63,824 nucleotides of DNA from Modestobacter caceresii (lineage in GTDB: Bacteria > Actinomycetota > Actinomycetes > Mycobacteriales > Geodermatophilaceae), in assembly GCF_000761485.1 (NCBI RefSeq), contig NZ_JPMX01000023.1:25601-89424 (forward strand), given 5' to 3'. Shown one piece after another: positions 6,814 through 62,084 of this stretch (positions are counted from its first letter, which is position 1; the number at the start of each line of letters is the position of its first letter). The position numbers and the translations under genes are program-made. The notes beneath the pieces were generated by a model. It was not told where the DNA came from. It did not search any database and saw only the letters and a program-made list of their open reading frames with translations.

Positions 6814-7320
6814 TCAGCCGGCGGGGCTGGTGGTCGTGTCGGCGCGGATGAACCCCACCGGCCAGGCGCCGGAGAGCCCCTCGCAGGCGTCGGTGTCGGA
6901 GTCCTCCACGACCACCAGGTAGTAGGTCGGGGGGACGACGTCAGAGGTGTTGATCTCGTCGAGGACAGCGGTGCCGGCCGGCACGTCGATGTCGCCGATC
7001 CGCTCCTCGAGCCGCTCGTCGAAGACCTGGACGCTCCAGCCGGCCTCGGCCACCACATCGGGCACCTCCAGCACGATCTCGGTGTCCGGCGCGACCTCCA
7101 GGTACGTCGGCTCGGTCCGGTAGCGCTGCCCCTCCCCGTCCAGGCAGTACTGGGTCGGGTCGACGGTGATCGGGTCCCCCCCGGCCTGCACGGTGACCGA
7201 GGGGACGGTCCCGCCGTCGTCCCCGGCACTTCCGCCGGAGCTGCCGGAGTCCCCGCACCCGGCGAGCAGCAGCACCCCGCTCAGCAGTGCCGTCCCCGAT
7301 GCTCGTCCTGCGCCGTTCAC
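6814..7320 (-). CDS. DUF2771-like lipoprotein
   Basis: 168 aa from a GTG at 7320. A signal peptide ends in the lipobox LLLAGC near residue 22, so the mature protein would be lipid-anchored at the outer face of the membrane. It is followed by a Ser/Gly/Asp linker and a compact beta-rich domain. Size and position near cspB fit the actinobacterial DUF2771 family. The start GTG overlaps the stop of the upstream MFS relic (GTGA), a leftover of the operon that used to hold both genes. Function unknown. Confidence 0.75.
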   Translation of the reverse strand: MNGAGRASGTALLSGVLLLAGCGDSGSSGGSAGDDGGTVPSVTVQAGGDPITVDPTQYCLDGEGQRYRTEPTYLEVAPDTEIVLEVPDVVAEAGWSVQVFDERLEERIGDIDVPAGTAVLDEINTSDVVPPTYYLVVVEDSDTDACEGLSGAWPVGFIRADTTTSPAG

Positions 7321-7440
7321 GGTGCCGCCTCCCGGTCGGTGGTGCGGATGACCCGGCGGCTGCGCAGGCTCCAGAGGGTGTGGCCGACGGCGAGCACCGG
7401 CAGCGCTGCAGCCACGGGGAGCCCCGCCGGCCGGTGATGG
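7317..7440 (-). pseudogene. relic of an MFS transporter gene (C-terminal tail only)
   Basis: In the frame ending at 7317, the last 40 residues read as a hydrophobic helix plus basic tail (LPVAAALPVLAVGHTLWSL, then RSRRVIRTTDREAAP), typical of the end of a major-facilitator transporter. Upstream there are only about 250 bp before the divergent DUF3027 gene, and the frame loses membrane character. In mycobacteria an MFS gene lies between the DUF2771 and DUF3027 genes, so the body of that gene seems to have been deleted here. The assignment rests on one helix and on gene order. Confidence 0.5.
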
Positions 7441-7584
7441 CCGGCGCGATCCCCAGCTCCCGGCGTGCGCGGGGCGGAGGCGTCGGGCACACGCCCATGG
7501 TGCCGCAGTCGCCTGTGCGCGCGGCGGGTGGAAGACGCCTCCCTGGCCGGGACGGCCTTGCCACCATCGGCGACAATGGGGGAC

Positions 7585-8397
7585 GTGTCCGACTCAACTC
7601 CTGCCGCCGCGTCCCCTGGCTCCTCTCCCGACGAGGTGCTGGCCGCTGCGGTCGAGCAGGCCCGGGCCGCTGCGATCGAGGTGGCCGGTGACCCGGCGGC
7701 GGTCGGCGAGCACCTGGGGGTGACCCCGGAGGCGCTCGGTGAGCAGGCCGACCCCGCGCTCGGCGTCGTCGGCACGCACTCCTTCGCCGCCACCCTGCTC
7801 GGCTACGCCGGGTGGCACTGGGCCGTGACACTGGCCACGGTGCCCGGCGCCGAGGAGGTCACCCTCGACGAGGTCGTGCTGCTCCCGGGTGACTCGGCGC
7901 TGCTCGCCCCCGCGTGGGTGCCGTGGCACGAGCGGCTGCGCCCCGGCGACCTGTCGGTGGGAGACGTCCTGCCCTCCACCGAGGACGACGCCCGGCTGGT
8001 GCCCGCGTACCTGGCCGACGACGACTCCGCCGAGGACCCGGCCGGCCGCGTCGTCGCCGAGGAGATGGGCATCGGCCGGGAGCGGGTGCTCTCACCCGAG
8101 GGGCGGATCGAGGCCGCGCAGCGCTGGCGCGACGGGGACTTCGGGCCGCGCTCGTCGATGGCCCGGCACGCCCCCGGCCCCTGCTCGACCTGCGGCTTCT
8201 ACCTGCCGCTGGCCGGTTCGCTCCGGCTCTCGCTCGGGGCCTGCAGCAACGCCTACGCCCCGGCCGACGGGCACGTCGTCACCGCCGACTACGGCTGCGG
8301 CGCGCACAGCCAGGCCAGCCTGGAGCGCACCGACGGCGAGCCGGCCGAGTTCACGCCCACGGCGCGCTACGACACCGCGGACTTCGACGTCATCTGA
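7585..8397 (+). CDS. DUF3027 family protein
   Basis: 270 aa. I chose GTG 7585 because GACAAT lies seven bases before it in the leaderless arrangement seen at many genes here; ATG 7576 in the same frame is the alternative. The protein is acidic and soluble. Its C-terminal third carries a cysteine cluster (CSTCGF, then single Cys residues in LGACSNAY and DYGCGAH) that could bind zinc. Gene order next to DUF2771, DUF2530 and marR matches the mycobacterial Rv0877 neighbourhood as I recall it. Molecular function unknown. Confidence 0.8.
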   Translation: MSDSTPAAASPGSSPDEVLAAAVEQARAAAIEVAGDPAAVGEHLGVTPEALGEQADPALGVVGTHSFAATLLGYAGWHWAVTLATVPGAEEVTLDEVVLLPGDSALLAPAWVPWHERLRPGDLSVGDVLPSTEDDARLVPAYLADDDSAEDPAGRVVAEEMGIGRERVLSPEGRIEAAQRWRDGDFGPRSSMARHAPGPCSTCGFYLPLAGSLRLSLGACSNAYAPADGHVVTADYGCGAHSQASLERTDGEPAEFTPTARYDTADFDVI

Positions 8398-8411
8398 GCG
8401 CGGCGCTGCGG

Positions 8412-8463
8412 CGCACTGCACGCTCTCCACCCGCCGTGCACGTCCTGCAGCACGTGCAGTGCG
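8412..8463. terminator. long inverted repeat between convergent genes
   Basis: CGCACTGCACG (8412-8422) is perfectly complementary to CGTGCAGTGCG (8453-8463), an 11-bp stem with a 30-nt loop that itself holds further GTGCACG and CTGCAG repeats. It lies between the DUF3027 stop (+) and the DUF2530 stop (-). Termination of both genes is the likely role. Confidence 0.5.
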
Positions 8464-8493
8464 TCCACTCGGCGTGCAAGGCAGCAGGTCGTC

Positions 8494-8703
8494 TCAGCGC
8501 TGGCCCTGCCAGCGCATGAGCGCCAGCCCGAGGCCGGGCAGCACGATGCCGGCCACGCAGGTCCAGGTCCAGACCGGGTCGACCCGGTCGCCGAGGAGGA
8601 GGAGCACCACCAGGGCGATCGCCCACAGCGCGGTACCCGTCAGGACCACCCGCACCGTGTCGACCTGCAGGGGCGGCGGAGAGGGCCGGGTCGGAGCGGG
8701 CAC
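8494..8703 (-). CDS. DUF2530-like small membrane protein
   Basis: 69 aa. It has a Pro-rich N-terminus, then two hydrophobic helices (VLTGTALWAIALVVLLLLG and WTCVAGIVLPGLGLALMRW) ending RWQGQR. Size, topology and position next to a marR gene match the DUF2530 family (Rv0879c in M. tuberculosis, from memory). Function unknown. Confidence 0.7.
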   Translation of the reverse strand: MPAPTRPSPPPLQVDTVRVVLTGTALWAIALVVLLLLGDRVDPVWTWTCVAGIVLPGLGLALMRWQGQR

Positions 8704-29696: not shown

Positions 29697-30710
29697 TCAG
29701 CGGTTCCGGCGGACCCCGAAGACGATGTCCTCCCAGGCGGGGATGCGGGCGCGCGGGTCCTCGTCCTCGCCGTCGAGCAGCGAGCCCAGCACCGCGGTGT
29801 CCTGGTTGTCGGGGTCGACCTCGTCGTAGGCGCTGCGGCGGGGGAGCCCGTCGTCCGGGCCGTCGCCGGCGGGCAGCCCGCCGGTGTGGAGCACCTCGGC
29901 GGGGAGCGCGTCGACCTGGTCGCCCTCGGCCAGGACGGCGTCCCGAGCCCCGTCGTCCCGGGTCCCGTCGGCTGGCCCCTGGTCGTCCGCGTCGCCGTGG
30001 TCGTCGGCCGGCTCGGGGTCGGGCTGCGCCTCGTCCTCGCTGTGCTCGTCGCCGCGGACCACGGAGATGCCCCGGCGGTCGACCGGTGCGGCGGGCAGAC
30101 CGGCCGGGACGTCCGGGACGACCCGGACCAGCCGGGTGCCCTCGGCGAAGTCCATCGTCGTGGCGTCGACCGGGGTCACCGTGCGGGCCGGGATGTCATA
30201 GCTCCAGCGGGTGCTGCCGGACTTGTGCCCGGCCTGCCAGTCCGCACGCACCTGCCAGGTGCCGTCCTCGGCGCGGTGCGCGTCCCAGCCGACGGTCTCC
30301 AGGTCGGTGCCGAGCAGCCGCAGCCGCTCGGACATGAACTGGTCCAGGGGCACGCTGGGCGTGCCCTCGGACAGCCGCACCCGCGCGCCGCGGGCCTGCT
30401 CGGCGACCCGGGCACGCTCCTGGAGCACCGGGTGGGCGAAGCGCATGATCCGCTCGACCCGGGTGCCGGAGGCGTGCGCCACCTGCTCGGGGGTCTCGCC
30501 GGCCCGGATGCGGGCCTGGATGACCCGCGGGGGCAGGTCGTCGGCCACCTCGGCCGCGGGCTGGGCCGGGGCGTCAGCCCGCAGCAGCTGCCGCAGCCGG
30601 TCGTCCACGGGCAGCTCGAAGCGCTCGCCGTCGGTCGAGTCGGGCGCATCCGCGGCGAGCACCAGGTGCCTGCCGTCCTCGGAGAGCGCCACGAGGCGCA
30701 GTGAGCGCAT
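29697..30710 (-). CDS. sepH: septation protein SepH
   Basis: 337 aa from ATG 30710, with GGAGG nine bases upstream. The N-terminal DUF3071 region (MRSLRLVALSEDGRHLVLA) runs to about residue 170 and contains an HTH-like stretch RIRAGETPEQVAHASGTRVE. A long acidic, disordered linker follows, and the C-terminus carries the conserved peptide IPAWEDIVFGVRR. SepH in Streptomyces and mycobacteria binds FtsZ and stimulates its assembly at division sites. Location next to trmH and serC matches Rv0883c. Confidence 0.9.
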   Translation of the reverse strand: MRSLRLVALSEDGRHLVLAADAPDSTDGERFELPVDDRLRQLLRADAPAQPAAEVADDLPPRVIQARIRAGETPEQVAHASGTRVERIMRFAHPVLQERARVAEQARGARVRLSEGTPSVPLDQFMSERLRLLGTDLETVGWDAHRAEDGTWQVRADWQAGHKSGSTRWSYDIPARTVTPVDATTMDFAEGTRLVRVVPDVPAGLPAAPVDRRGISVVRGDEHSEDEAQPDPEPADDHGDADDQGPADGTRDDGARDAVLAEGDQVDALPAEVLHTGGLPAGDGPDDGLPRRSAYDEVDPDNQDTAVLGSLLDGEDEDPRARIPAWEDIVFGVRRNR

Positions 30711-30997: not shown

Positions 30998-32782
30998 GTG
31001 TGCGGCATCTCGGGTGAGGTCCGGTTCGACGGCGGCGTCGCGGACATGGCGGCGGTCAGCGCGATGTGCGACCAGCTCCAGCGACGAGGGCCCGACGGCT
31101 CGGGCGGCTGGCAGGCCGGGCCGGTCGCACTCGGGCACCGGCGGCTGAAGATCATCGACCTGACCGACGCCGGCGCCCAGCCGATGGTCGACGCAGAGCT
31201 CGGGCTGACGATGGTCTTCAACGGGATCATCTACAACTACAAGGAGCTGCGCGCCGAGCTCCAGGGCGTCGGCTACCGCTTCTTCTCCACCTCCGACACC
31301 GAGGTGGTGCTGAAGGCCTACCACCGGTGGGGCGCGGCCTGCGTCGAGCGGTTCCTGGGGATGTTCGCGTTCGCCGTCGTCGAGCGGGACTCCGGCCGGG
31401 TGGTGCTGGCCCGCGACCGCTTCGGGATCAAGCCGCTGTACCTCAGCCGCGGGCCGGGCCGGGTGCGGTTCGCCTCCTCGCTGCCCGCGCTCGTCCGTGC
31501 CGGGGGCGTGGACACCAGTATCGACCCGGTCGCGCTGCACCACTACATGTCCTTCCACGCCGTCGTCCCGGCGCCGCGCACGATCCTGGCCGGGGTGGGC
31601 AAGCTGCCACCGGCCACGGTGCGCACCTACGAGGCCGACGGCCGGGAGTCCGACTGGGAGTACTGGCGCCCGGTGCACGAGCGGCGGGCCGAGTTCGCCG
31701 GCCTGTCCGCCGGGGAGTGGCAGGAGCGGGTGCTGGAGTCGCTGCGCGTGGCGGTGCGCCGGCGGATGGTCGCCGACGTCCCGGTGGGCGTGCTGCTGTC
31801 CGGGGGCATCGACTCCAGCCTCGTCGTCGGCCTGCTGGCCGAGGAGGGGCAGAAGGGCCTGGCCACGTTCTCCATCGGCTTCGAGGCGGTGGGCGAGCGG
31901 TCCGGTGACGAGTTCGCGTACTCCGACGTGGTGGCCGAGACCTTCGGCACCGACCACCACCGGCTGATGGTGCCCAGCGCCGACGTGCACGCCGGTCTCG
32001 ACGGCGCGGTGGCGGCGATGAGCGAGCCGCAGGTCAGCCACGACGCGGTCGCCTTCTACCTGCTCTCCCAGCAGGTCAGCCAGCACGTCAAGGTGGTGCA
32101 GAGCGGGCAGGGCGCCGACGAGGTGCTCGCCGGCTACGACTGGTACCCGCCGTTGGACGGCGTCCCGGCCGAGCAGGCCGTCGACGCCTACGCGCGGGGC
32201 TTCGTCGACCGGTCGCACGCCGAGCTGGCCACCCAGCTCGCCGACCGCTGGATGGTGACCGACGACGTCAGCCGGGCGCTGATCGCCGAGCACTTCGGCC
32301 GGCCCGGCGCGGAGACGACGCTGGACAAGGCGCTGCGGCTGGACTCGACGATCATGCTGGTCGACGACCCGGTCAAGCGCGTGGACAACATGACGATGGC
32401 CTGGGGCCTGGAGGCCCGGGTGCCGTTCCTGGACCACGAGTTCGTGGAGCTGGCCGCCGCCGTCCCGCCGGAGCTCAAGCTCGCCCACGGCGGCAAGGGC
32501 GTGCTCAAGGACGCCGCCCGCAAGGTCATCCCCGCGGACGTGATCGACCGGCCGAAGGGCTACTTCCCGGTGCCGGCGATCACCGACCTGCACGGCGACT
32601 ACCTGGAGACGGTGCGCGCGGCGCTGCACGCACCGGAGGCTCGGGAACGCGGCCTGTTCCGCACCGACTACGTGGAACGGCTGCTCGCCGACCCGAACAG
32701 CCACCGCACGACCCTGGGCGCCAACCAGCTGTGGCAGGTCGGTCTGCTCGAGCTGTGGCTGCAGCGGCACGGCATCCGCTGA
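30998..32782 (+). CDS. N-acetylglutaminylglutamine amidotransferase (AsnB/AsnO family)
   Basis: 594 aa from GTG 30998, behind GGGGAGGGG. The mature N-terminus begins with the Cys nucleophile (MCGISGEVRFDG) of class II glutamine amidotransferases. The synthetase half carries the ATP loop LLSGGIDSSL near residue 270. The stretches VDDPVKRVDNMTMAWGLEAR and VIDRPKGYFPVPAITDL are, as I recall, diagnostic of the NAGGN branch (TIGR03104) rather than asparagine synthetase. That enzyme amidates N-acetylglutaminylglutamine to an osmolyte. The usual partners, a GNAT/ATP-grasp dipeptide synthetase and an M42 peptidase, are not in this window; an S9 peptidase and a permuted ATP-grasp gene follow instead. 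Confidence 0.85.
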   Translation: MCGISGEVRFDGGVADMAAVSAMCDQLQRRGPDGSGGWQAGPVALGHRRLKIIDLTDAGAQPMVDAELGLTMVFNGIIYNYKELRAELQGVGYRFFSTSDTEVVLKAYHRWGAACVERFLGMFAFAVVERDSGRVVLARDRFGIKPLYLSRGPGRVRFASSLPALVRAGGVDTSIDPVALHHYMSFHAVVPAPRTILAGVGKLPPATVRTYEADGRESDWEYWRPVHERRAEFAGLSAGEWQERVLESLRVAVRRRMVADVPVGVLLSGGIDSSLVVGLLAEEGQKGLATFSIGFEAVGERSGDEFAYSDVVAETFGTDHHRLMVPSADVHAGLDGAVAAMSEPQVSHDAVAFYLLSQQVSQHVKVVQSGQGADEVLAGYDWYPPLDGVPAEQAVDAYARGFVDRSHAELATQLADRWMVTDDVSRALIAEHFGRPGAETTLDKALRLDSTIMLVDDPVKRVDNMTMAWGLEARVPFLDHEFVELAAAVPPELKLAHGGKGVLKDAARKVIPADVIDRPKGYFPVPAITDLHGDYLETVRAALHAPEARERGLFRTDYVERLLADPNSHRTTLGANQLWQVGLLELWLQRHGIR

Positions 32783-32820
32783 CCTGACGTGGCCGCGCTC
32801 ACGGCGCGGCGAGGAACACC

Positions 32821-32866
32821 ACCACGCCGTCCGTCTGCTCCACTCGGGGCCGACGGACGGCGTGGT
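32821..32866 (+). terminator. strong hairpin between the amidotransferase and S9 peptidase genes
   Basis: A perfect 15-bp stem (ACCACGCCGTCCGTC / GACGGACGGCGTGGT) with a 16-nt loop lies 38 bp after the amidotransferase stop. It suggests termination or attenuation before the peptidase gene, so the downstream pair may be expressed at a different level. Confidence 0.7.
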
Positions 32867-32920
32867 GCGGTGTGGCACCCGTCGCGCCGCCCGACCGATC
32901 CCCGACCGAGGAGGTGTGCC

Positions 32921-34777
32921 GTGACCGACGTCCTGCGCCAGACCGGACTGTCCACCGAGGTGCGCCTCGCCGTCGCCGAGATCGCCGGCGCCCCGGGTGC
33001 CTGGTGCCCCAGCCTGGCGCCGACGGGGGACCGGGTGGCCTACGTGAGCGACCGCTCCGGCGTCCCCCGGCTGGAGGTCGCCGCGCTCGACCAGCAGACC
33101 CCGCCGGCGGTGCTGTCCGGTGCCGACGAGGAGGTCGTCTCGGTCGCGTGGTCGCCGGACGGCGGGTGGCTGGCCTACCTGGTGAGCCCCGGCGGCTCGA
33201 TCTGCGCGCAGTTGTGGGCGGTCCGGCCCGACGGCACCGAGCGGCACCTGGTGGCCGGGGAGGACCCGCGGGCCACCGTCTTCGCCGGCGGGTGGACCGC
33301 AGGTGGCCACTACGTCTGCTCGATCGCCCCGGGTGACGGCCCGGGCGCCGACGTCGTCCTGGTCGACGTGGTCAGTGGCGCCCACCGCACCCTGGCCACC
33401 GGCGGCTTCCTCGCCGTCACCGCGGTCTCCGCCGACGAGCGGACGGTGCTGGCCCGGCGGGGTCCGCGCGGGCACCGGCACATCGTGCTGGTCGACGTCG
33501 CCAGCGGCGCCCAGCAGCGGGTCATCCCGCTCGACGCCCCGGGTGGCGGCGCCTCCGAGGACGGCCGGTTCGCCCCGGACGGCTCGGCCGTCTTCCTCCG
33601 CGCCGCGCTCCCGGCCCGGCCCGGGCTGCCGCGCAGCGACCGCACGGCGCTGGTCCGGGTCCCGGTGGACGCCGGTCGGCAGCCGGGCCCGGCCCAGGTG
33701 CTCATCACCCGGCCCGACGCCGACCTGGAGTCCTACGCCGTCCGCGCCGACGGCACGGTGCTGTGCGTGTGGAACGCCGACGGGGTCACCGAGCTGGAGC
33801 TGCGGGACCTGGCCGAGGGCGGCCTGCTGCGCACCGTGCGGCTACCGCAGCCGGTCATGCCCGGCTGGTCGCTGTCGGCCGACGGCGGCACGCTGCTGGC
33901 CGAGCTGACCGGCCCCACGTCCCCCCGCTCGCTGTGGTCGGTACCGCTGGACGTCGACGGGGAGCCGGTGCCGCTGCTCAGCACGCCCCGCCACCCCGAC
34001 CCGCACCTGCTGGTGACGCCGGTCCGGCTGCGCTACCCGGCCGCCGACGGCACCGAGCTGGACGGCTGGCTGTACGCCCCGCCGGGGGTGGACGGCCCCA
34101 ACCGCACGGTGGTGAGCTTCCACGGCGGCCCAGAAGGGCAGGAACGCCCGGACTACCACCCGGTGGCGCAGTCGCTGGTCGCGGCCGGGCTGACCGTCTT
34201 CGCGCCGAACGTGCGCGGTTCGGGCGGGCACGGCCGGGCGTTCATGGCCGCCGACGACCTCGCTGCCCGGGAGGAGTCGTTCACCGACGTCGTCGCCACC
34301 GTCGACCACCTGGTGGCCGAGGGGATCGCGCTGCCGGGGCAGGTCGGTTCGCACGGCTGGTCCTACGGCGGCTACCTGACGCTGGTGGCGCTCACCCGCT
34401 GGCCGGACCTGTTCGCCGCCGGCGCCACGCTGGCCGGGATGAGCGACCTGCGCACCTTCTTCGCGGGCACCGAGCCGTGGATGGCGGCGGCCTCGGTCAC
34501 CGAGTACGGCGACCCGGTCACCGACCGGGACATGCTGGCCGCGATCTCCCCGATGACCGTGCTGGACCGGCTGCGGTCGCCGGTGCTGCTCACCCACGGC
34601 GACCGGGACACCAACGTGCCGGTGCTGGAGTCGATCCAGGCGCACCAGGAGCTGACCGCGCTCGGTGCGCCGGCCGAGCTGCTCCTCCTGCGGGGCGAGG
34701 GTCACACGATCGTGGGACGGGAGAACGTGCTGCACCTGTCGGAGCGGGTCGCCGAGTGGTTCGATCGCTGGTTGTGA
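32921..34777 (+). CDS. S9-family peptidase (prolyl oligopeptidase / acylaminoacyl peptidase type)
   Basis: 618 aa from GTG 32921, behind GAGGAGG. The N-terminal 370 residues form repeated beta-propeller strands (VAYVSDRSGVPRLEV, VAWSPDGGWLAYLV). The C-terminal 250 residues are an alpha/beta hydrolase with nucleophile motif GWSYGGY, the Asp in THGDRDTNVP and the His in GEGHTI. No signal peptide is seen, so it is cytoplasmic. It cleaves short peptides; specificity unknown. Only 7 bp separate it from the permuted ATP-grasp gene, so those two are one operon. Confidence 0.87.
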   Translation: MTDVLRQTGLSTEVRLAVAEIAGAPGAWCPSLAPTGDRVAYVSDRSGVPRLEVAALDQQTPPAVLSGADEEVVSVAWSPDGGWLAYLVSPGGSICAQLWAVRPDGTERHLVAGEDPRATVFAGGWTAGGHYVCSIAPGDGPGADVVLVDVVSGAHRTLATGGFLAVTAVSADERTVLARRGPRGHRHIVLVDVASGAQQRVIPLDAPGGGASEDGRFAPDGSAVFLRAALPARPGLPRSDRTALVRVPVDAGRQPGPAQVLITRPDADLESYAVRADGTVLCVWNADGVTELELRDLAEGGLLRTVRLPQPVMPGWSLSADGGTLLAELTGPTSPRSLWSVPLDVDGEPVPLLSTPRHPDPHLLVTPVRLRYPAADGTELDGWLYAPPGVDGPNRTVVSFHGGPEGQERPDYHPVAQSLVAAGLTVFAPNVRGSGGHGRAFMAADDLAAREESFTDVVATVDHLVAEGIALPGQVGSHGWSYGGYLTLVALTRWPDLFAAGATLAGMSDLRTFFAGTEPWMAAASVTEYGDPVTDRDMLAAISPMTVLDRLRSPVLLTHGDRDTNVPVLESIQAHQELTALGAPAELLLLRGEGHTIVGRENVLHLSERVAEWFDRWL

Positions 34778-34784
34778 CCCTGCG

Positions 34785-36245
34785 ATGACCGACGCCTCCG
34801 GCGTCTTCGCGCGCTACCCGGGCTCGGCGGACGACGAGGCGACGGGTGCGCGGCGGTCGGCCTACCGCCCGGTGCTGCAGGCGATGGACGACCTCGGTGC
34901 CGACGGGATCGGCGCGGTCGTCGACGCCATCGACCGGGAACGCCGGTCGCGCGGGGTGGTGGCCGGCAGCTACGTCGACGGCCGGCTGCAGGAGCGGTCG
35001 CTCCCGCTCTGCCCGGTGCCGCGCGTCGTCCCGACCGCCGACTGGGCGCACGTCGCCCGCGGCGCCGAACAGCGGCTCCGGGCGCTGAACGCCTTCCTCG
35101 CCGACGTCTACCGCCCGGCCGGACGGCGCCGCACCGACCCCGACCGGCACCCGGAGGTGGTCCGCGCCGGCATCGTGCCGGCGTGGGTCGTCGCCGCCAG
35201 CCCGGGGCTCCGCGCGTCGGCGGCCGGGCTGGCCGTGCCCGGGCAGCAGCGGGCCACCGTCGCGGCTCTGGACCTGCGGCACGGCCCCAGGGGCTGGGTG
35301 GCGGTCTCGGACCACCTGCGGACGCCGTCGGGCATCGGGTACGCCCTCAGCGACCGGGCCAGCAGCCGGGCGGCGCTGCCGGAGCTGCACGCCACGGCCG
35401 ACGCCGCCGGGCTCGCCGACCCGGGCGAGGCGGTGCCGCTGCTGCGGGCGGCGCTGGCCGAGGCCGCACCGTCGGCGTGCACCGGGACGCCGCAACTGGC
35501 CCTGCTGTCGGAGGGGCCGCGCAGCACCAGCTGGTTCGAGCACCGGCAGCTGGCCGCGGCGATGGGCGTCCCGATCGCCACGCCGGACACGCTCTGGCCG
35601 ACCCGCGGTGGGGGAGTCGCGGTGCAGGTGGACGGGCAGCGGCTGCAGGTCGACGTCCTCCACCTGCGGCTGGACGAGGCCGGGCTGGCCGCCCACCTGA
35701 CGCCGAGCGGGGCGGCACTGGACGTGCTGCTCGGTGCCGCGGTGCGGGCCGGGGAGCTGGCGCTGGCCAACGTGCCGGGCAACGGCGTGGCCGACGGCGA
35801 GGCCACCTACCGGTACGTGCCGGAGCTGATCCGGTTCTACCTGGGGGAGGAGCCGGTGCTGGACACCGTGCGCACCTGGTTGCTGGCCGACGACGCCGAC
35901 CTCGCCGAGGTGCGCGACCGGCTGCACGAGCTGGTCGTGACGCCGGTCGACGGGTACGGCGGTCGCGGGGTGGTGGTCGGTCCGCGCTGCTCGGCGGCCG
36001 AGCTGGCCGAGCTGCACGCCGAGGTGGCGGCCGCCCCACACCGCTTCACGGCCCAGGAACCGCTCGACGTCTCCACGGTGCCCACCGTCGTCGACGGCTC
36101 GCTGGCGCCGCGCGTCGCCGGCCTGCGGGTGTCCACCGTCGCCGGCGCGACCACCCGGGCGCTGCCCGCACCGTGGACCCGGGTGGAGCTGGTCGAGGGC
36201 TCCGGCGTGCTGGACGGCAGCAAGGACACCTGGCTGCTGCCCTGA
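34785..36245 (+). CDS. circularly permuted type 2 ATP-grasp protein
   Basis: 486 aa. It opens with the DUF404-like region (SAYRPVLQAMDDLGADGIGA, then RALNAFLADVYRPAG). The middle carries LRTPSGIGYALSDR and STSWFEHRQLAAAMGVPI, and the end NVPGNGVADGEATYRYVPEL and VVTPVDGYGGRGVV, in the order of the circularly permuted ATP-grasp family (DUF404/DUF407). Such proteins are predicted to join amino acids or peptides through an acyl phosphate. The usual alpha-E and transglutaminase partners are absent here; it is instead coupled to an S9 peptidase and downstream of an amidotransferase. Confidence 0.83.
   Translation: MTDASGVFARYPGSADDEATGARRSAYRPVLQAMDDLGADGIGAVVDAIDRERRSRGVVAGSYVDGRLQERSLPLCPVPRVVPTADWAHVARGAEQRLRALNAFLADVYRPAGRRRTDPDRHPEVVRAGIVPAWVVAASPGLRASAAGLAVPGQQRATVAALDLRHGPRGWVAVSDHLRTPSGIGYALSDRASSRAALPELHATADAAGLADPGEAVPLLRAALAEAAPSACTGTPQLALLSEGPRSTSWFEHRQLAAAMGVPIATPDTLWPTRGGGVAVQVDGQRLQVDVLHLRLDEAGLAAHLTPSGAALDVLLGAAVRAGELALANVPGNGVADGEATYRYVPELIRFYLGEEPVLDTVRTWLLADDADLAEVRDRLHELVVTPVDGYGGRGVVVGPRCSAAELAELHAEVAAAPHRFTAQEPLDVSTVPTVVDGSLAPRVAGLRVSTVAGATTRALPAPWTRVELVEGSGVLDGSKDTWLLP

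Positions 36246-36299: not shown

Positions 36300-36300
<1 letters not shown>
36243..36300 (+). repeat. stop-anchored intergenic repeat, copy C (terminator-like)
   Basis: It starts at the TGA of the ATP-grasp gene (TGAAGGACCCCGAGG) and ends GGGACGGTGCCCC against the serC stop codon. It contains a CTCGCGAGCTCGGGACGAG dyad. It is the most diverged of three copies and lies between convergent genes. Confidence 0.65.
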
Positions 36301-38575
<2,275 letters not shown>

Positions 38576-57590: not shown

Positions 57591-58517
57591 ATGAACAAGC
57601 ACCTGACCACCCGAGGCGCGCGCCTCGCCGCCGGACTCGCCGCCGTCGCCCTCACCGCCACCGCCTGCGGCGGGGACGCCGAGGAGGAGACCACCGCAGC
57701 CGGTGGGACGTCGTCCGGCAGCGGCTGCGAGACCGTCAACCTGGGCTTCATCCCCTCCTGGACCGACGGCCTGAGCATGGCCCACCTGTGGGACAGCGTC
57801 CTCGGCGAGCAGGGCATCGAGGTCGAGATGACCGAGATCTCCGAGGCGGCTCCGCTGTACGCCGGCCTGGCCGGGGGCGACGTCGACGTCTACCCGTCCG
57901 CCTGGTCCGAGGTCACCCACGCGGCCTACATGGAGGAGTACGGCGACCAGCTCGAGGACCTCGGTGCCTGGTACGAGGGCGCCAAGCTGACCTTCGCCGT
58001 CCCGGAGTACACCGACATCGAGTCGATCGCCGACCTGGCCGGCAACGCCGAGATGTTCGACGGCCGGATCGTCGGGATCGAGCCCGGTGCCGGCCTCACC
58101 GCCACCACCAAGGACAGCGTCATGCCGACCTACGGGCTGGAGGAGGACTACACGCTGGTCGAGTCCTCCACCACCGCGATGCTGGCCGAGCTGCAGGCGG
58201 CGACCGACGCCAACGAGGACATCGTCGTCACCCTGTGGCGCCCGTTCTGGGCCAACAGCGAGTTCCCGGTCAAGGACCTGGCCGACCCCGAGGGCGCGCT
58301 GGGCGGGTCCGAGGGTCTGCACACGCTGGCCCGTGAGGGCTTCTCCGCCGACTGCGCCGATGTGGCGTCGATGATGGAGAACGCGGCCCTCACCGACGAG
58401 CAGTACGGCTCGCTGGAGAACATGGTCGTCAACGAGTACGGCGAGGGCCGGTACGACGAGGCCGTCGACGCCTGGCTCGAGGAGAACCCGGACTTCATGG
58501 AGTCCCTGCAGGTCTGA
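57591..58517 (+). CDS. proX: glycine betaine/proline ABC transporter substrate-binding lipoprotein
   Basis: 308 aa. Signal peptide ends in the lipobox ALTATAC near residue 26, so it is a lipid-anchored binding protein outside the membrane. An OpuAC-type domain follows: NLGFIPSWTDGLSMAHLWDS, GDVDVYPSAWSEVTHAAYME and VVTLWRPFWANSEFPVKDLA. Trp residues in these stretches could make the aromatic cage for the quaternary amine. It is last gene of proVWX, with a 99-bp gap after proW and a strong terminator behind it. Confidence 0.92.
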   Translation: MNKHLTTRGARLAAGLAAVALTATACGGDAEEETTAAGGTSSGSGCETVNLGFIPSWTDGLSMAHLWDSVLGEQGIEVEMTEISEAAPLYAGLAGGDVDVYPSAWSEVTHAAYMEEYGDQLEDLGAWYEGAKLTFAVPEYTDIESIADLAGNAEMFDGRIVGIEPGAGLTATTKDSVMPTYGLEEDYTLVESSTTAMLAELQAATDANEDIVVTLWRPFWANSEFPVKDLADPEGALGGSEGLHTLAREGFSADCADVASMMENAALTDEQYGSLENMVVNEYGEGRYDEAVDAWLEENPDFMESLQV

Positions 58518-58558
58518 TCGGTGCGCACCGCCGCTCGCTGAGCGACCGGAGCACACGC

Positions 58559-58596
58559 CCGAGGGGCCCGACGGCGCGTGCCGTCGGGCCCCTCGG
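58559..58596 (+). terminator. strong terminator after proX
   Basis: A perfect 17-bp stem (CCGAGGGGCCCGACGGC / its complement) with the tetraloop GCGT lies 42 bp after the proX stop and 72 bp before the tRNA gene. Confidence 0.85.
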
Positions 58597-58668
58597 TCGT
58601 CCGATACCCTCTCGTCGGCAACCGGCCCGCGCGCAGCGGCCCGGTGGTGGTGCAGCCGCACCGCCGCA

Positions 58669-58744
58669 GCCCCCGTAGCTCAGGGGATAGAGCATCGGTT
58701 TCCTAAACCGTGTGTCGCAGGTTCGAATCCTGCCGGGGGCACCA
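58669..58744 (+). tRNA. tRNA-Arg (anticodon CCT)
   Basis: The full cloverleaf is readable. Acceptor arms are GCCCCCG and CGGGGGC, the D arm GCTC-AGGGGAT-AGAGC, the anticodon loop TTCCTAA with CCT at 58702-58704, the T arm GCAGG-TTCGAAT-CCTGC, discriminator A and an encoded CCA. It reads the rare AGG codon. The 3' end of such genes is a common integration site, and accessory DNA begins directly after it. Confidence 0.96.
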
Positions 58745-59179
58745 GTACGACCGCAGGTCAGGCGCTCGTCGAGGTTGTCGCCGCGTGGGGACGAGCACTG
58801 GCATGACAAGACGGTGTCACTTTGGGCCGTAGATCCGCTTGCGCCGACGCAGCGCATGCAAGGAAGTGCAGGGAGCGGCACGGACCGGCCCTGGGTGGCG
58901 CCAGGCCCGAAGACGATGCGGTCTGGGCGCGCACTGGCCTCGCCAGCACCGGGGCCGCATGCCGCGGACGTCCGAGCCGCGCGAACCAGGAGACCTGAGT
59001 GGCTCGCCGGGACTGCTGACGCGCTCCTCAACGACCGTGCGTGACAGTCTGTACGCACACGAGCATCGCTCTTTGGTGGCCGACCAGATTGTCGTCGGAG
59101 CAGCCTGAGCAACCGCTCGGCTGTCGGTCAAGCAGCACTGCGCCTCAAGGGCTGAGAGCGGGGAACTGGGAGTTTGCGG
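58745..59179. other. 435 bp without a convincing gene, right of the tRNA
   Basis: Open frames here are short and mutually overlapping. A + frame ending at 59108 finishes with a plausible protein-like stretch (VRDSLYAHEHRSLVADQIVV) but has no supporting start or domain, so it may be a decayed fragment. No repeat of the tRNA 3' end was seen. Confidence 0.5.
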
Positions 59180-59381
59180 ATGCGCGAGCAGTCATCAGGC
59201 GAAGGCAACCTGCTGGACAACGCCATCGCGAGTGTTGGTGACCCGGGCCTGAGGACCACGCTGGCACAAGAAGTGGAGCGGCTGCGCGGCGCCCGCCACT
59301 TTGGCCTCGTCTTCGACCGGCATCTGCCCGAATCGGCCAGGCTGCCTCACCATCCGATCCGAAAGGGCGCCACGGGATTGC
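59180..59381 (+). pseudogene. truncated N-terminus of a site-specific DNA methyltransferase, cut by an IS
   Basis: From ATG 59180, 67 codons read as a helical start followed by LRTTLAQEVERLRGARHFGL and VFDRHLPESARLPHHPIRKG. This resembles the N-terminal segment of large type III-like DNA methyltransferases as I recall them (a KALSSRRAFGLNFERH-type start). The frame runs into the left end of the IS element, and no continuation was found right of the IS. The assignment is from pattern memory and needs a database search. Confidence 0.45.
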
Positions 59382-59438
59382 TGTCGGTCCAGTTGACACT
59401 CGATCTGCGGGACGTGGTCCCGCGGGGAGGATGTCACT

Positions 59439-59721
59439 GTGCCCAAGAAGTTCCCGCCCGAGTTCAAGCGTGACGTCGTTCGGGTCGCCCGTCGGGGCGA
59501 TCTGAGCCACGCCGAGGTCGCGGCCGATTTCGACATCTCGGTGGAGTCGGTCCGTCGCTGGTGCCGGCAGGCCGACATCGATGACGGCGTCATGTGGGCA
59601 GACCAGCAGCGAGCAGAACGAGTTGGTGCAGCTGCGCCGCCAGATGCGGCGGCTGGAGATGGAGAACGAAATCTTGCGCCGTGCCGCGGCCTATTTCGCC
59701 GCGGGCAGCCTCCCAAAATGA
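59439..59721 (+). pseudogene. IS3-family OrfA with a one-base frameshift
   Basis: The N-terminal 51 residues (VPKKFPPEFKRDVVRVARRG, HTH FDISVESVRRWCRQADI) are in one frame. The leucine-zipper half (TSSEQNELVQLRRQMRRLEM, then ENEILRRAAAYFAAGSLPK and TGA at 59719) is in the +1 frame. Removing one base near 59595 (ATGTGGG) would restore a normal OrfA. In the present sequence the first frame instead runs through 40 unrelated residues straight into OrfB, giving one 386-codon open frame that has lost the zipper. Confidence 0.7.
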
Positions 59722-60599
59722 GCTACCCGCTGGTCCGTGACCTGGCCGCCGAGGGCATTCCGGTGCGGCTGACCTGCGGGGTGCTCGGACATTCGAGACA
59801 GGCCTACTACGCGTGGCTGTCCAACCCGGTCAGCGACCGTGAGTTGCAGGACGCCTACCTGACCAACGCCCTGATCGACACCTACAGCGATGACCCTGAG
59901 TTCGGCTACCGGTTGCTCGCTGACGAGCTCGAGCGCGCAGGCCACGCAGTCGGCGAGCGCCGGGTGTGGCGGCTGTGCTCGCAGCAGAAGCTGTGGTCGA
60001 ACACCGTGCGCAAGGGGCGCCGGGGGGCAGGCAAGACCCCGGGCCCGGCGGTGCACGACGACCACGTCCAGCGCGACTTCACCGCGCCCGCGCCTGATCG
60101 CGTGTGGCTGACCGACATCACCGAGCACCCCACGGCGGAAGGAAAGCTGTACTGCTGCGCCATCAAGGACGTGTTCAGCAACCGCATCGTTGGCTACGCG
60201 ATCGACGAGCGGATGACCGCACAGCTGGCCGTTACCGCGCTCCGCACCGCGGTTGCTCGGCGCCAGCCGGTCGGTGTGGTGGTGGTTCACAGCGACCGCG
60301 GATCGCACTTCCGAGCCCGATCATTTCGGGCCGTGCTGACCGCTGCCGGGCTGCAGGGATCCATGGGCCGCGTCGCCTCGGCCGGCGACGACGCGGCGAT
60401 GGAGTCCTGGCATGCGCTGCTGCAGAAGAATGTCCTCGACCGCCGCCGCTGGCGCACCCGCGACGAGCTCCACGCCGCGATCGTGTTCTGGACCGAACAC
60501 ACCTACAACCGCCGCCGACGCCAGCGAGCCCTCGGCAAGCTCACCCCGGTCGAGTACGAACTCGCCTTCACGACCCAAGCCGCGGCCATCGCGGCATGA
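59718..60599 (+). CDS. IS3-family transposase OrfB (DDE integrase domain)
   Basis: 293 aa. ATG 59718 overlaps the OrfA stop inside AAAATGA, the place where IS3 elements normally make OrfAB by -1 frameshifting. It has an HTH_21-like N-terminus (GVLGHSRQAYYAWLSNPVSD) and the retroviral-integrase core. Catalytic residues are Asp in VWLTDITEHP, Asp in VVVHSDRGSHF and Glu in AAMESWHALLQ, with exactly 35 residues between the second Asp and Glu. OrfB is intact, but transposition may fail because OrfA is broken. Confidence 0.88.
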   Translation: MSYPLVRDLAAEGIPVRLTCGVLGHSRQAYYAWLSNPVSDRELQDAYLTNALIDTYSDDPEFGYRLLADELERAGHAVGERRVWRLCSQQKLWSNTVRKGRRGAGKTPGPAVHDDHVQRDFTAPAPDRVWLTDITEHPTAEGKLYCCAIKDVFSNRIVGYAIDERMTAQLAVTALRTAVARRQPVGVVVVHSDRGSHFRARSFRAVLTAAGLQGSMGRVASAGDDAAMESWHALLQKNVLDRRRWRTRDELHAAIVFWTEHTYNRRRRQRALGKLTPVEYELAFTTQAAAIAA

Positions 60600-60639
60600 T
60601 CACCACTCACCCCGTGTCAACTGAACCTGCAGCAGTCCC

Positions 60640-61598
60640 AGACGGCAACCACGGGGACGTACCTCGGGCAGCGCACACAGTCGGGCTCTTGGCGCGGCGG
60701 CGGGCGTCCGCCGAGAACGCCCGGCCCCTCTTGAGGGAGGGACATGGAGCGTCTCGCAACGGGCCGCTTTGAGGGACGCCGCGCTACGAGGCACGGGCTT
60801 ACCCCTGATGCGAGTGGGTCGTGACGACTTGATTTCGCCCCTGATTTCACCCCTGATTTCGGAATCAGGGGTAGTCCGACGACGGCACGCCGTTGACCTG
60901 GGAAAACGTCCACTCATGAGCGCTCGGCGGAGTGCAACTAAATGTAGTGCAAATGGGGACCGCGCAGATAGTGAGTTGGATGCTCCGCCTCGGCCGCCGG
61001 ACAGCGCCCGAATGACGGTTCGACGGTGCCACATTGTGGTGCGCGATAGCGATCGAAACGCTGGGCGAGGAGGGGACGCAAACGAAGCCGAGTGCCCCGC
61101 TGGGGCATGACGAGTAGCCCCAGGAGGTGCGGCTCCACCTCCTCATGGACGGCGGTCTGGCTTGGCGCCGACCTGCTCGACCCGGAGATCCAGGGGCCTC
61201 GTTGCTGAGTTTTGCCCGGGTCTGACGCGGGCCATTTGTCGGATGGCCATGGCGCTGGAGGGCACACAGCCGAAAAGGTGGCAGGTGTCGCAGTGTGTGT
61301 GGGGCGGCCATGGCCCCGATAGCAAGTCCTCAAGCGCCAGGACTGCGCTGAGGCATCGAGGGCCGGGCCGCGAGGCGCAACTTCCTCGCGCGGTCGTGGC
61401 GGGCCTGAAGTGCGCGCTCGTCGTCGCTTCAAGGTGAACCATGTACGCGCGCACACCCTCGCGGTGCAACGGAGACACTCTCGCTACCGGTACAGACTGC
61501 CCGGCCCGGCTCCGACACGTACAGGGTCAGCGTCATCGGGCCCGAGGCAGACAGTCTGTCCCGCTTCCCGTGGCTCCCCCATCCTGAAGGGACAGGTT
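60640..61598. other. about 960 bp without a convincing gene
   Basis: No frame here shows a credible start, domain or consistent codon use on either strand. Notable items are the direct repeat of CCCCTGATTTC and hairpin at 60827-60872 and a GGAGGTG-CGGCTC-CACCTCC hairpin at 61123-61142. It may be decayed coding DNA of the island. Confidence 0.5.
60849..60872. terminator. hairpin with TCGG loop and direct repeats
   Basis: ACCCCTGATT and AATCAGGGGT form a 10-bp stem with the tetraloop TCGG. The left arm is the last of two CCCCTGATTTC units (60838-60860) preceded by a partial third (GATTTCG at 60831). Confidence 0.5.
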
Positions 61599-62084
61599 GT
61601 GGCCAGGCAGAAGCGCGAGAAGCGGCAGGAGCCTCCGATCCTCCGCCTGGAGAAGGCAGACTCGGAGTGGGCTCAGAAGGTGCTCGCGGAGATCGACCAC
61701 GTCGTCCGCGGAATCGAGGGCAGCCCCAAGCGCACCCAGTTCGTCTCAATGTTGATCGACCCAGGCACCAAGACGGGCAGAGCGCAGTGGCGGGATGACC
61801 ATGATCGACCCAAGACGGAGCAGCGCGCGGCATCCCGGGTCGCTCGTGCCCGCCTGCGTGTGATCAGCACGCTGCGCGATTCGGGGATGTCCCGGAAATC
61901 CGTCGGCGACGTGATGGGGCTGACCGGAGACGCGGTCAAGGCCCTGGAGGACCGGGCGGCTCAGACGCGAGCGACGCAGGTACGGATCTCCCGCCGGGAC
62001 GCCGCCCTCCTGGCTCAGGCCAAGGAAGCGGCAAGGGGAGGCGATGGCGACGTGCGCTGGTCGAACACGGACGTTGCCCGCTGA
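61599..62084 (+). CDS. putative HTH DNA-binding protein of the island
   Basis: 161 aa from GTG 61599, behind GAAGGGA. It is strongly charged, with two helical blocks. The stretch LRDSGMSRKSVGDVMGLTGD (about residues 97-116) reads as a helix-turn-helix of sigma-region-4 or MarR-like type, preceded by RVARARLRVISTLRDS. Codon use is less extreme in GC than the backbone. No family recognised. It is convergent with the next gene pair, a 26-bp palindrome lying between them. Confidence 0.6.
   Translation: MARQKREKRQEPPILRLEKADSEWAQKVLAEIDHVVRGIEGSPKRTQFVSMLIDPGTKTGRAQWRDDHDRPKTEQRAASRVARARLRVISTLRDSGMSRKSVGDVMGLTGDAVKALEDRAAQTRATQVRISRRDAALLAQAKEAARGGDGDVRWSNTDVAR

Follow-up and report, generated by a model that had tools for sequence, protein, structure and literature searches.

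One of the closest described systems to the locus studied here is the NAGGN pathway, encoded as asnO-ngg(-M42), in which an amidotransferase (AsnO) is combined with a GNAT/ATP-grasp ligase (Ngg) and an M42 peptidase. Micromonospora provocatoris MT25 is a NAGGN producer whose authors, in an excerpt of their report, predict asnO and ngg (PMC8146288). For Frankia, an excerpt of another paper describes an 'asnO-ngg' cluster with a dipeptidase between asnO and a downstream gene called Ngg, the product of which shares <15% identity with other Ngg proteins (PMC5563000). Circularly permuted (CP) ATP-grasp proteins of the Pfam families PF04174/PF14403 belong to the CP-ATP-grasp/alpha-E/transglutaminase/Anbu systems covered by extracts of two further papers (PMC6376114, PMC3597751).

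The stretch of 63,824 nt from Modestobacter caceresii that we analyzed (hereafter the window) resembles the NAGGN pathway in having an amidotransferase of the same family over its cut-off, an Ngg in the same genome, and a layout of ligase, amidotransferase, and peptidase. It differs in that its asnO does not adjoin ngg and belongs to another asnO branch, with an S9 peptidase in place of M42 and a CP-ATP-grasp protein in place of the GNAT/ATP-grasp Ngg. The three window genes (asnO, S9, and CP) are adjacent, fall in the branches of a wider GCS2-CP-ATP-grasp/asnO/S9 set found across Actinomycetota, and are the local form of that set, with no GCS2 domain at the locus. We found no description of the set in the part of the literature that we searched, and we make no claim that it is unpublished. 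Iyer et al. 2009 reportedly concerns CP-ATP-grasp/alpha-E/transglutaminase/Anbu systems and would be the likeliest place for such a description.

Amidotransferase and peptidase of the window

Amidotransferase. The window asnO (30998..32782, + strand) encodes a glutamine-dependent amidotransferase, assigned from its motifs, trees, and a profile match to TIGR03104 of 982 bits against a curated cut-off of 570, and the NAGGN-type marks claimed for it in the original prediction were borne out. The gene starts with GTG, immediately followed by Cys2. Cys2, SGGIDSS, and KGYFP are all found in the protein. At a diagnostic cluster the window protein carries R570/T572/G574, whereas Ngg-paired AsnO proteins have L/P/R. 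Since the two types are unlike at 570–574, they may have different acceptors. In trees the window asnO grouped with the S9/CP-linked branch, outside the Ngg-paired branch; S9-linked asnO formed a separate branch with modest support (87/86).

Peptidase and hairpin. The S9 serine peptidase gene (32921..34777, + strand; PF00326, 153 bits) has a GTG start behind GAGGAGG. Its triad of Ser481/Asp563/His595 was unchanged in 11/11 aligned members, the window protein has all three residues, and the closest solved structure is 5l8s, 'Amino acyl peptidase'. S9 and CP were predicted to lie downstream of asnO with 7 bp between them, and the PF00326 and PF14403 matches and the measured spacing agree. Between asnO and S9 lies a hairpin with a perfect 16-bp stem and no T-run (32820..32867, + strand); the fold of 32783–32908 had an MFE of −78.2 kcal/mol (z = −4.3), which 0/200 shuffles equaled. 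The strong hairpin said to divide asnO from S9 and CP is thus real, but it is not a conserved divider: among 13 relatives folded, its sequence recurred only in G006, and the spacer of G009 also folded strongly (−75 kcal/mol) with a different sequence. We ruled out a conserved terminator based on this recurrence, the missing T-run, and the hairpin's absence from the terminator scan.

Altered ligase sites and the Ngg gene of the genome

CP-ATP-grasp protein. The CP gene (34785..36245, + strand; PF14403, 319 bits, and PF04174) encodes a protein altered at 11/24 conserved ATP-grasp sites, among them E, N, K, and NSS. Residues 175–177 (35307..35315, +) are S-D-H rather than the E-D-N of intact CP proteins, residues 338–339 (35796..35801, +) are G-E rather than D-K, residue 386 (35940..35942, +) is T where intact CP has the K preceding a glycine-rich loop, and the C-terminal region (36204..36224, +) is without the conserved NSSxGGG stretch. 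Structure 3n6x retains the LEDN, DDK, and NSS motifs. By analogy with glutathionylspermidine synthetase, we take the conserved sites to be those of ATP and Mg binding. Judged by these residues, the active site of the window CP seems to be gone, and the protein would be a pseudo-ligase. The dN/dS of CP was 0.39–0.47 (three pairs including the window) vs 0.09–0.14 for asnO and 0.21–0.24 for S9, while decayed CP in other genera had values of 0.14–0.30, overlapping the intact range. The gene would persist as a pseudo-ligase under selection that is relaxed yet still purifying.

Ngg, M42, and GCS2. A profile search found Ngg (TIGR03103) at C16:8546–10192, beside trehalose genes, with 805 bits against a cut-off of 569, ruling out its absence from the genome. 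The same genome gave 0 matches to the TIGR03106 M42 peptidase. The claim that neither the NAGGN synthetase nor M42 is present therefore holds within the window and, genome-wide, for M42 alone. Our M42 search covered this genome plus a single neighboring gene per locus at 10 Ngg loci, and the family flanked ngg in 3/10 of these actinobacterial loci. The genome has a single TIGR03104 member over the cut-off (asnO, contig C23) and a single Ngg (C16), located apart. A single ngg with otsA nearby occurred in 9/10 Ngg-bearing genomes of the genus, and otsA was also near asnO-ngg in 4/4 longer loci from other genera. A tblastn search of nine single-ngg loci for a remnant of Ngg-type asnO returned chance-level matches only. 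GCS2 genes of the genome were also considered as the missing partner: those at C38 and C3 fell outside the system GCS2 branch and were rejected, and the one at C111 was a partial match (34 bits), too distant for the tree.

Given the Ngg at C16 and the loss of CP sites, Ngg is likely the working ligase in this genome. Read literally, the original prediction has CP acting as the ligase in a variant osmolyte pathway here, with Ngg absent; the gene content of the window alone suits that reading, but the Ngg gene and the 11 changed sites leave it with very little credibility. We consider it probable instead that the CP system and Ngg are non-orthologous counterparts serving a NAGGN-like product, and that in this genome Ngg serves as the ligase, asnO and S9 were kept, and CP is a pseudo-ligase. 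The resident asnO is retained where Ngg has no asnO of its own, which suggests that window-type asnO accepts the product of Ngg. The dipeptide in this organism would then come from the Ngg encoded beside otsA, the window asnO would amidate it, and S9 would replace the missing M42 peptidase. The window locus would be a derived version of an actinobacterial route to amidated dipeptides whose ligase is a CP-ATP-grasp enzyme, not Ngg: CP, with or without GCS2, would join two amino acids, AsnO would amidate the terminal carboxylate with glutamine as the nitrogen donor, as its family implies, and the S9 peptidase would hydrolyze the product, balancing the pool. We infer this chemistry, the direction of events, and a product that is NAGGN or close to it.

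Conservation and ligase integrity in Geodermatophilaceae

Gene order. asnO, S9, and CP were side by side in 16/56 family genomes, of which 12 lacked Ngg, so the three-gene order proved to be conserved among relatives. In the remaining 28 family genomes with asnO over the cut-off, asnO adjoined Ngg. For asnO coverage, the gene would fall past contig ends in G461 and G462, G463 was partial, and G464 was left out. Synteny is fixed by a conserved upstream DUF3071 gene (29697..30635, − strand), which we take to be sepH-like. Downstream, the conserved neighbors are a class-V aminotransferase gene (36300..37415, − strand), presumably serC-like, and a citrate synthase gene (37445..38575, − strand; PF00285 in the relative at L134). 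Synteny of the site held across genera in the sepH-serC comparison, from which genus g5 was left out, and asnO was absent from the site in 11/11 loci of genomes with asnO-ngg elsewhere.

CP integrity and Ngg. The state of CP matched Ngg status in 46/49 genomes, a count that omits the CP pieces of G054 (37–47% identity) and less similar CP proteins per genome. CP had 5–12 of the 24 sites changed in 26/27 Ngg-bearing family genomes and ≤1 changed in 20/22 Ngg-less ones. The exceptions were G463, with an intact CP and Ngg, and G047 and G459, with neither. The 24 sites were our choice among invariant columns of 18 CP proteins, which included five from Ngg-less trios (G003, G009, G022, G042, and G052); minus these five, the Ngg-less intact count was 15/17. 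An independent column list built without trio or pair CP proteins contained nearly all 24 sites. A sign test on the CP tree had 2–3 informative pairs, with which 0.05 is unreachable, and independent events were few. The family ancestor probably had both sepH-asnO-S9-CP-serC and asnO-ngg-otsA with interchangeable ligases; Ngg-less lineages would mostly have kept CP intact, and in Ngg-bearing lineages CP would have decayed or been lost and one of two asnO genes kept. One genus is a natural experiment in which the ligase is intact or decayed, with and without Ngg, offering a route to the product and substrate.

In four family genomes, asnO-ngg coexisted with an intact GCS2-CP-asnO set, and each of the two had a separate asnO; this suggests that their products or uses differ. 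Accordingly, the trio and the GCS2-CP-asnO-S9 operon could make another amidated peptide (e.g. an acyl dipeptide amide, such as a gamma-glutamyl one) with a use unrelated to NAGGN, the decay of CP with Ngg being coincidence or osmolyte replacement. The diagnostic differences at 570–574 and the closest solved relatives of GCS2, which are YbdK-type proteins, are compatible with such a peptide, as is the coexistence in these four genomes, but the tracking of Ngg by CP and the retention of the resident asnO argue against it, and we regard it as rather unlikely.

The wider GCS2-CP/asnO/S9 set in Actinomycetota

Among the best 80 of 480 loci, all from named actinobacteria, GCS2-CP-asnO-S9 was found in 61 and Ngg on the locus in 0/80. 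Only GCS2, CP, asnO, and S9 recurred in most of these 80; a search for another recurrent gene gave next families in ≤17 loci that were lineage-specific. In the phylum sample, 13/13 asnO genes of Ngg-less genomes were beside GCS2, CP, and/or S9, and neighbors were read at 7/32 Ngg-bearing loci (own genome aside). The label 'N-acetylglutaminylglutamine amidotransferase' thus does not imply Ngg, as many actinobacteria pair the same family with a different ligase set. GCS2 and CP are usually one polypeptide in other actinobacteria, and in trees the trio asnO and trio CP grouped with the GCS2-CP-asnO-S9 set. The trio CP grouped with GCS2-fused CP, apart from other sampled CP of the family, which differs from the alpha-E/transglutaminase/Anbu systems; none of those three components was among the five window proteins scanned. 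The wider set shares the GCS2 domain with YbdK/glutamate-cysteine ligase family 2, but the system GCS2 formed its own branch (99/97).

The three genes might instead be neighbors by descent only, in which case asnO would be a standard NAGGN amidotransferase serving the distant Ngg, and S9 and CP would be parts of an unrelated peptide system. An Ngg is in the genome, and S9-CP pairs without asnO occur in genera g3, g7, g11, and g12 and in G454. Against this, asnO, S9, and GCS2-CP were linked anew in other gene orders and taxa, and S9-linked asnO has its own branch, modestly supported as above; we consider descent alone improbable. With the three-gene order in 16/56 family genomes and homologous sets common in Actinomycetota, a non-homologous ligase and peptidase set around the window-type amidotransferase is well supported in relatives. 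The proposed non-homologous replacement is accordingly supported in part; in this genome the CP sites are lost and Ngg is likely the ligase. CP-ATP-grasp and GCS2 proteins without an assigned function gain a testable role. It is possible, though we put it forward tentatively, that the fused GCS2-CP-ATP-grasp is a second, unrelated NAGGN/NAGG-type synthetase that is widespread across Actinomycetota and whose annotation has until now come only via the shared amidotransferase; the ancestry of Geodermatophilaceae would have had both routes, with nearly all lineages that kept Ngg letting CP decay or losing it and those that dropped Ngg keeping CP.

No acetyltransferase was recognized adjoining the window genes among the five window proteins scanned. 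A GNAT acetyltransferase gene followed S9 in 3 Frankia-type loci, and 7/10 genes scanned downstream of S9 were not GNAT. The Frankia loci that we analyzed, with GCS2-CP, asnO, S9, and, where scanned, the GNAT gene, resemble the 'asnO-ngg' cluster in the excerpt of PMC5563000, although GCS2 goes unmentioned in that excerpt. The Frankia gene called Ngg there is probably this GNAT gene.

The trio and its host genome

As originally predicted, three genes stand together on the forward strand of the window: asnO (30998-32782), an S9 peptidase gene (32921-34777), and a gene for a circularly permuted ATP-grasp protein, CP (34785-36245). AsnO scored 982 bits to TIGR03104 (cut-off 570) and retained Cys2 after the start, SGGIDSS, and KGYFP. 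The S9 peptidase retained Ser481, Asp563, and His595, which were invariant in 11/11 aligned members. CP was missing SS..GG and carried S, H, G, E, T, G, and D in place of E, N, D, K, K, D, and N; its nearest solved structure, 3n6x, retained the LEDN, DDK, and NSS motifs. G+C was ~0.68 at 58001-62000 and 0.71-0.78 in the rest of the window.

The Modestobacter caceresii genome (139 contigs, 100% complete) contained one TIGR03104 protein over the cut-off by profile search. The standard N-acetylglutaminylglutamine amide (NAGGN) synthetase and M42 peptidase had been thought missing. A whole-genome profile search returned no match to TIGR03106 for M42, but the TIGR03103 synthetase, Ngg, was present once, on contig C16 (8546-10192; 805 bits, cut-off 569), upstream of an otsA-like glycosyltransferase-20 gene and a trehalose-phosphatase gene. 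The main premise of the variant pathway therefore fails for this genome. The observation behind it was right and the interpretation half right. The best reading of the window locus is that it is what remains of a second ligase system, in which asnO and S9 are presumably used and CP, decayed here, is a putative pseudo-ligase; in most relatives that have no Ngg, all three genes are present and the ligase is intact.

CP dN/dS was 0.24-0.47 in four pairs from the window's clade, with 0.39-0.47 in the three pairs to which the window's own CP belongs. Four pairs of intact CP gave 0.11-0.27, and four pairs of decayed CP from other genera gave 0.14-0.30. These ranges indicate relaxed constraint in the window's clade and no clear relaxation in the other genera; some constraint persists everywhere, so decayed CP may still serve a non-catalytic function.

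CP decay and asnO loss within Geodermatophilaceae

Among 56 family genomes, TIGR03104 was found over cut-off in 44 and Ngg in 32. By position, asnO adjoined Ngg in 28 genomes and S9-CP in 16, placing the three genes side by side in relatives too, and the two kinds of asnO formed separate branches. Twelve of those 16 were missing Ngg, while four (M. caceresii, G006, G017, and G025) had it at another site. Four genomes (G013, G019, G038, and G043) contained a second asnO behind a fusion of CP to the carboxylate-amine ligase domain GCS2, with S9 recognised after it in 2/4. Those of their GCS2-CP sequences that entered our trees grouped with Microbacteriaceae (Naasia, Herbiconiux), which suggests horizontal transfer. 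In G022, a Fic-domain gene lay between CP and serC (L132:11257-12438) and a GCS2 gene (G022:C1:347388-348227, locus L289) was broken by a TAA stop.

CP integrity followed Ngg. We read 24 sites in 49 genomes, having picked them from columns that did not vary across 18 CP proteins from intact systems; a column list built without trio or S9-CP pair proteins contained nearly all of these sites. With Ngg present, 5-12 sites were changed in 26/27 genomes; with Ngg absent, at most one was changed in 20/22, or 15/17 without the five that helped define the sites. Fifteen genomes were added once the pattern was known from 34, and 13/15 agreed. The misfits were G463 (80% complete; Ngg plus intact CP), G459 (70% complete; no Ngg, three sites changed), and G047, among the first 34 (no Ngg, three sites changed). 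Fisher's exact test gave p = 2e-10 but takes no account of the relatedness of the genomes: five changes of state are required on the CP tree, and an independent-pairs test with 2-3 informative pairs cannot be significant. In G047, CP stood alone (locus L137, contig C111; CP at 7110-8591) between sepH and serC, and asnO and S9 were not found there.

The site sepH-(asnO)-S9-(CP)-serC-citrate synthase was retained across genera. In genomes with asnO-ngg at another site, asnO was gone from the sepH-serC site in 11/11 loci read, which leave out genus g5, itself a carrier of asnO-ngg; CP was decayed in eight and gone in three (genus g2). Within the window's genus, 9/10 Ngg genes had otsA nearby and no adjacent asnO. 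Seven of these nine genomes kept the resident asnO at the trio; that of G463 was partly on the contig and that of G464 outside the sequences analysed. The tenth, G454, had asnO-ngg and was missing the resident asnO. Outside the window's genus, otsA was also near asnO-ngg in 4/4 longer loci; the asnO-ngg of G454 had no otsA nearby. Either asnO type can therefore survive beside Ngg. We read the two types as probably interchangeable, which would imply a similar acceptor. Against this, positions 570/572/574 were L/P/R in Ngg-paired and R/T/G in S9-CP-linked proteins, and four genomes held an intact GCS2-CP set together with asnO-ngg.

A wider actinobacterial set

TIGR03104 exceeded its cut-off in 46 of 396 genomes sampled from the phylum, and 13 of the 46 had no Ngg match at E 1e-100. 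GCS2, CP, and/or S9 lay beside asnO in 13/13, as GCS2-CP-asnO-S9 (3), GCS2-asnO-S9 (4), CP-asnO (4, one cut at a contig end and one with a broken CP), asnO-S9 (1), and asnO with a distant GCS2 (1). Seven control loci with Ngg had no GCS2 or CP; one had an S9 piece of 26 bits. Searching named genomes with the GCS2 of this set gave 480 relatives. The best 80, some stopping at contig ends, comprised GCS2-CP-asnO-S9 (61), GCS2-asnO-S9 (5), GCS2-CP-asnO (4), GCS2-CP (4), and GCS2 alone (6), with Ngg on 0/80 loci. Full-set hosts among them included Micromonospora, Actinoplanes, Frankia, Streptosporangium, Mycobacterium, Herbiconiux, and Nitriliruptorales. GCS2 and CP shared one open frame in 16/16 measured loci having both, four of which were domain-scanned.

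S9-linked asnO genes formed one branch with modest support (87/86), and trio CP clustered with GCS2-fused CP, away from the family's other CP proteins (92/97). These placements argue that the wider set is homologous to the window trio, which is without the set's GCS2: the M. caceresii GCS2 genes on C38 and C3 fell outside the set's branch, and the C111 copy was too distant to place. In four relatives (L177-L180) the locus was GCS2-asnO-S9 with no CP, complementary to the window, where asnO-S9-CP stands with no GCS2. Four loci from Streptosporangiaceae and Micromonospora (L228, L233, L234, and L206) had a second, different GCS2 (296-323 bits, own branch) near the system GCS2 or beyond the operon end. 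The NCBIfam 'equivalog' TIGR03104 scored 900-970 bits on 8/8 tested asnO proteins without an Ngg neighbour, so its name may mislabel them.

Predicted function

In the known pathway as outlined in PMC8070244, Ngg carries out both the acetylation and the joining of two glutamines, and the resulting product is amidated by AsnO. In the system proposed here, CP would take the place of Ngg at the ligase step, AsnO would carry out amidation, and S9 would act as the hydrolase. S9 would suit an N-acetylated dipeptide by analogy, because its nearest structures include acylamino-acid-releasing enzymes. No acetyltransferase was recognised among the scanned window proteins. Ten genes downstream of S9 were scanned; three, from Frankia-type loci, were GNAT acetyltransferases and the other seven were not GNAT. 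For Frankia, PMC5563000 reports asnO together with a dipeptidase and a so-called 'Ngg' that is <15% identical to other Ngg proteins. NAGGN production by Micromonospora provocatoris MT25 is reported from NMR in PMC8146288. The GCS2-CP-asnO-S9 set is tied to NAGGN only loosely through Micromonospora, as asnO and ngg in MT25 are those authors' prediction. Micromonospora made up 11 of the best 80 of 480 loci, ten with GCS2-CP-asnO-S9 (asnO split over two frames in one) and one with GCS2-CP-asnO.
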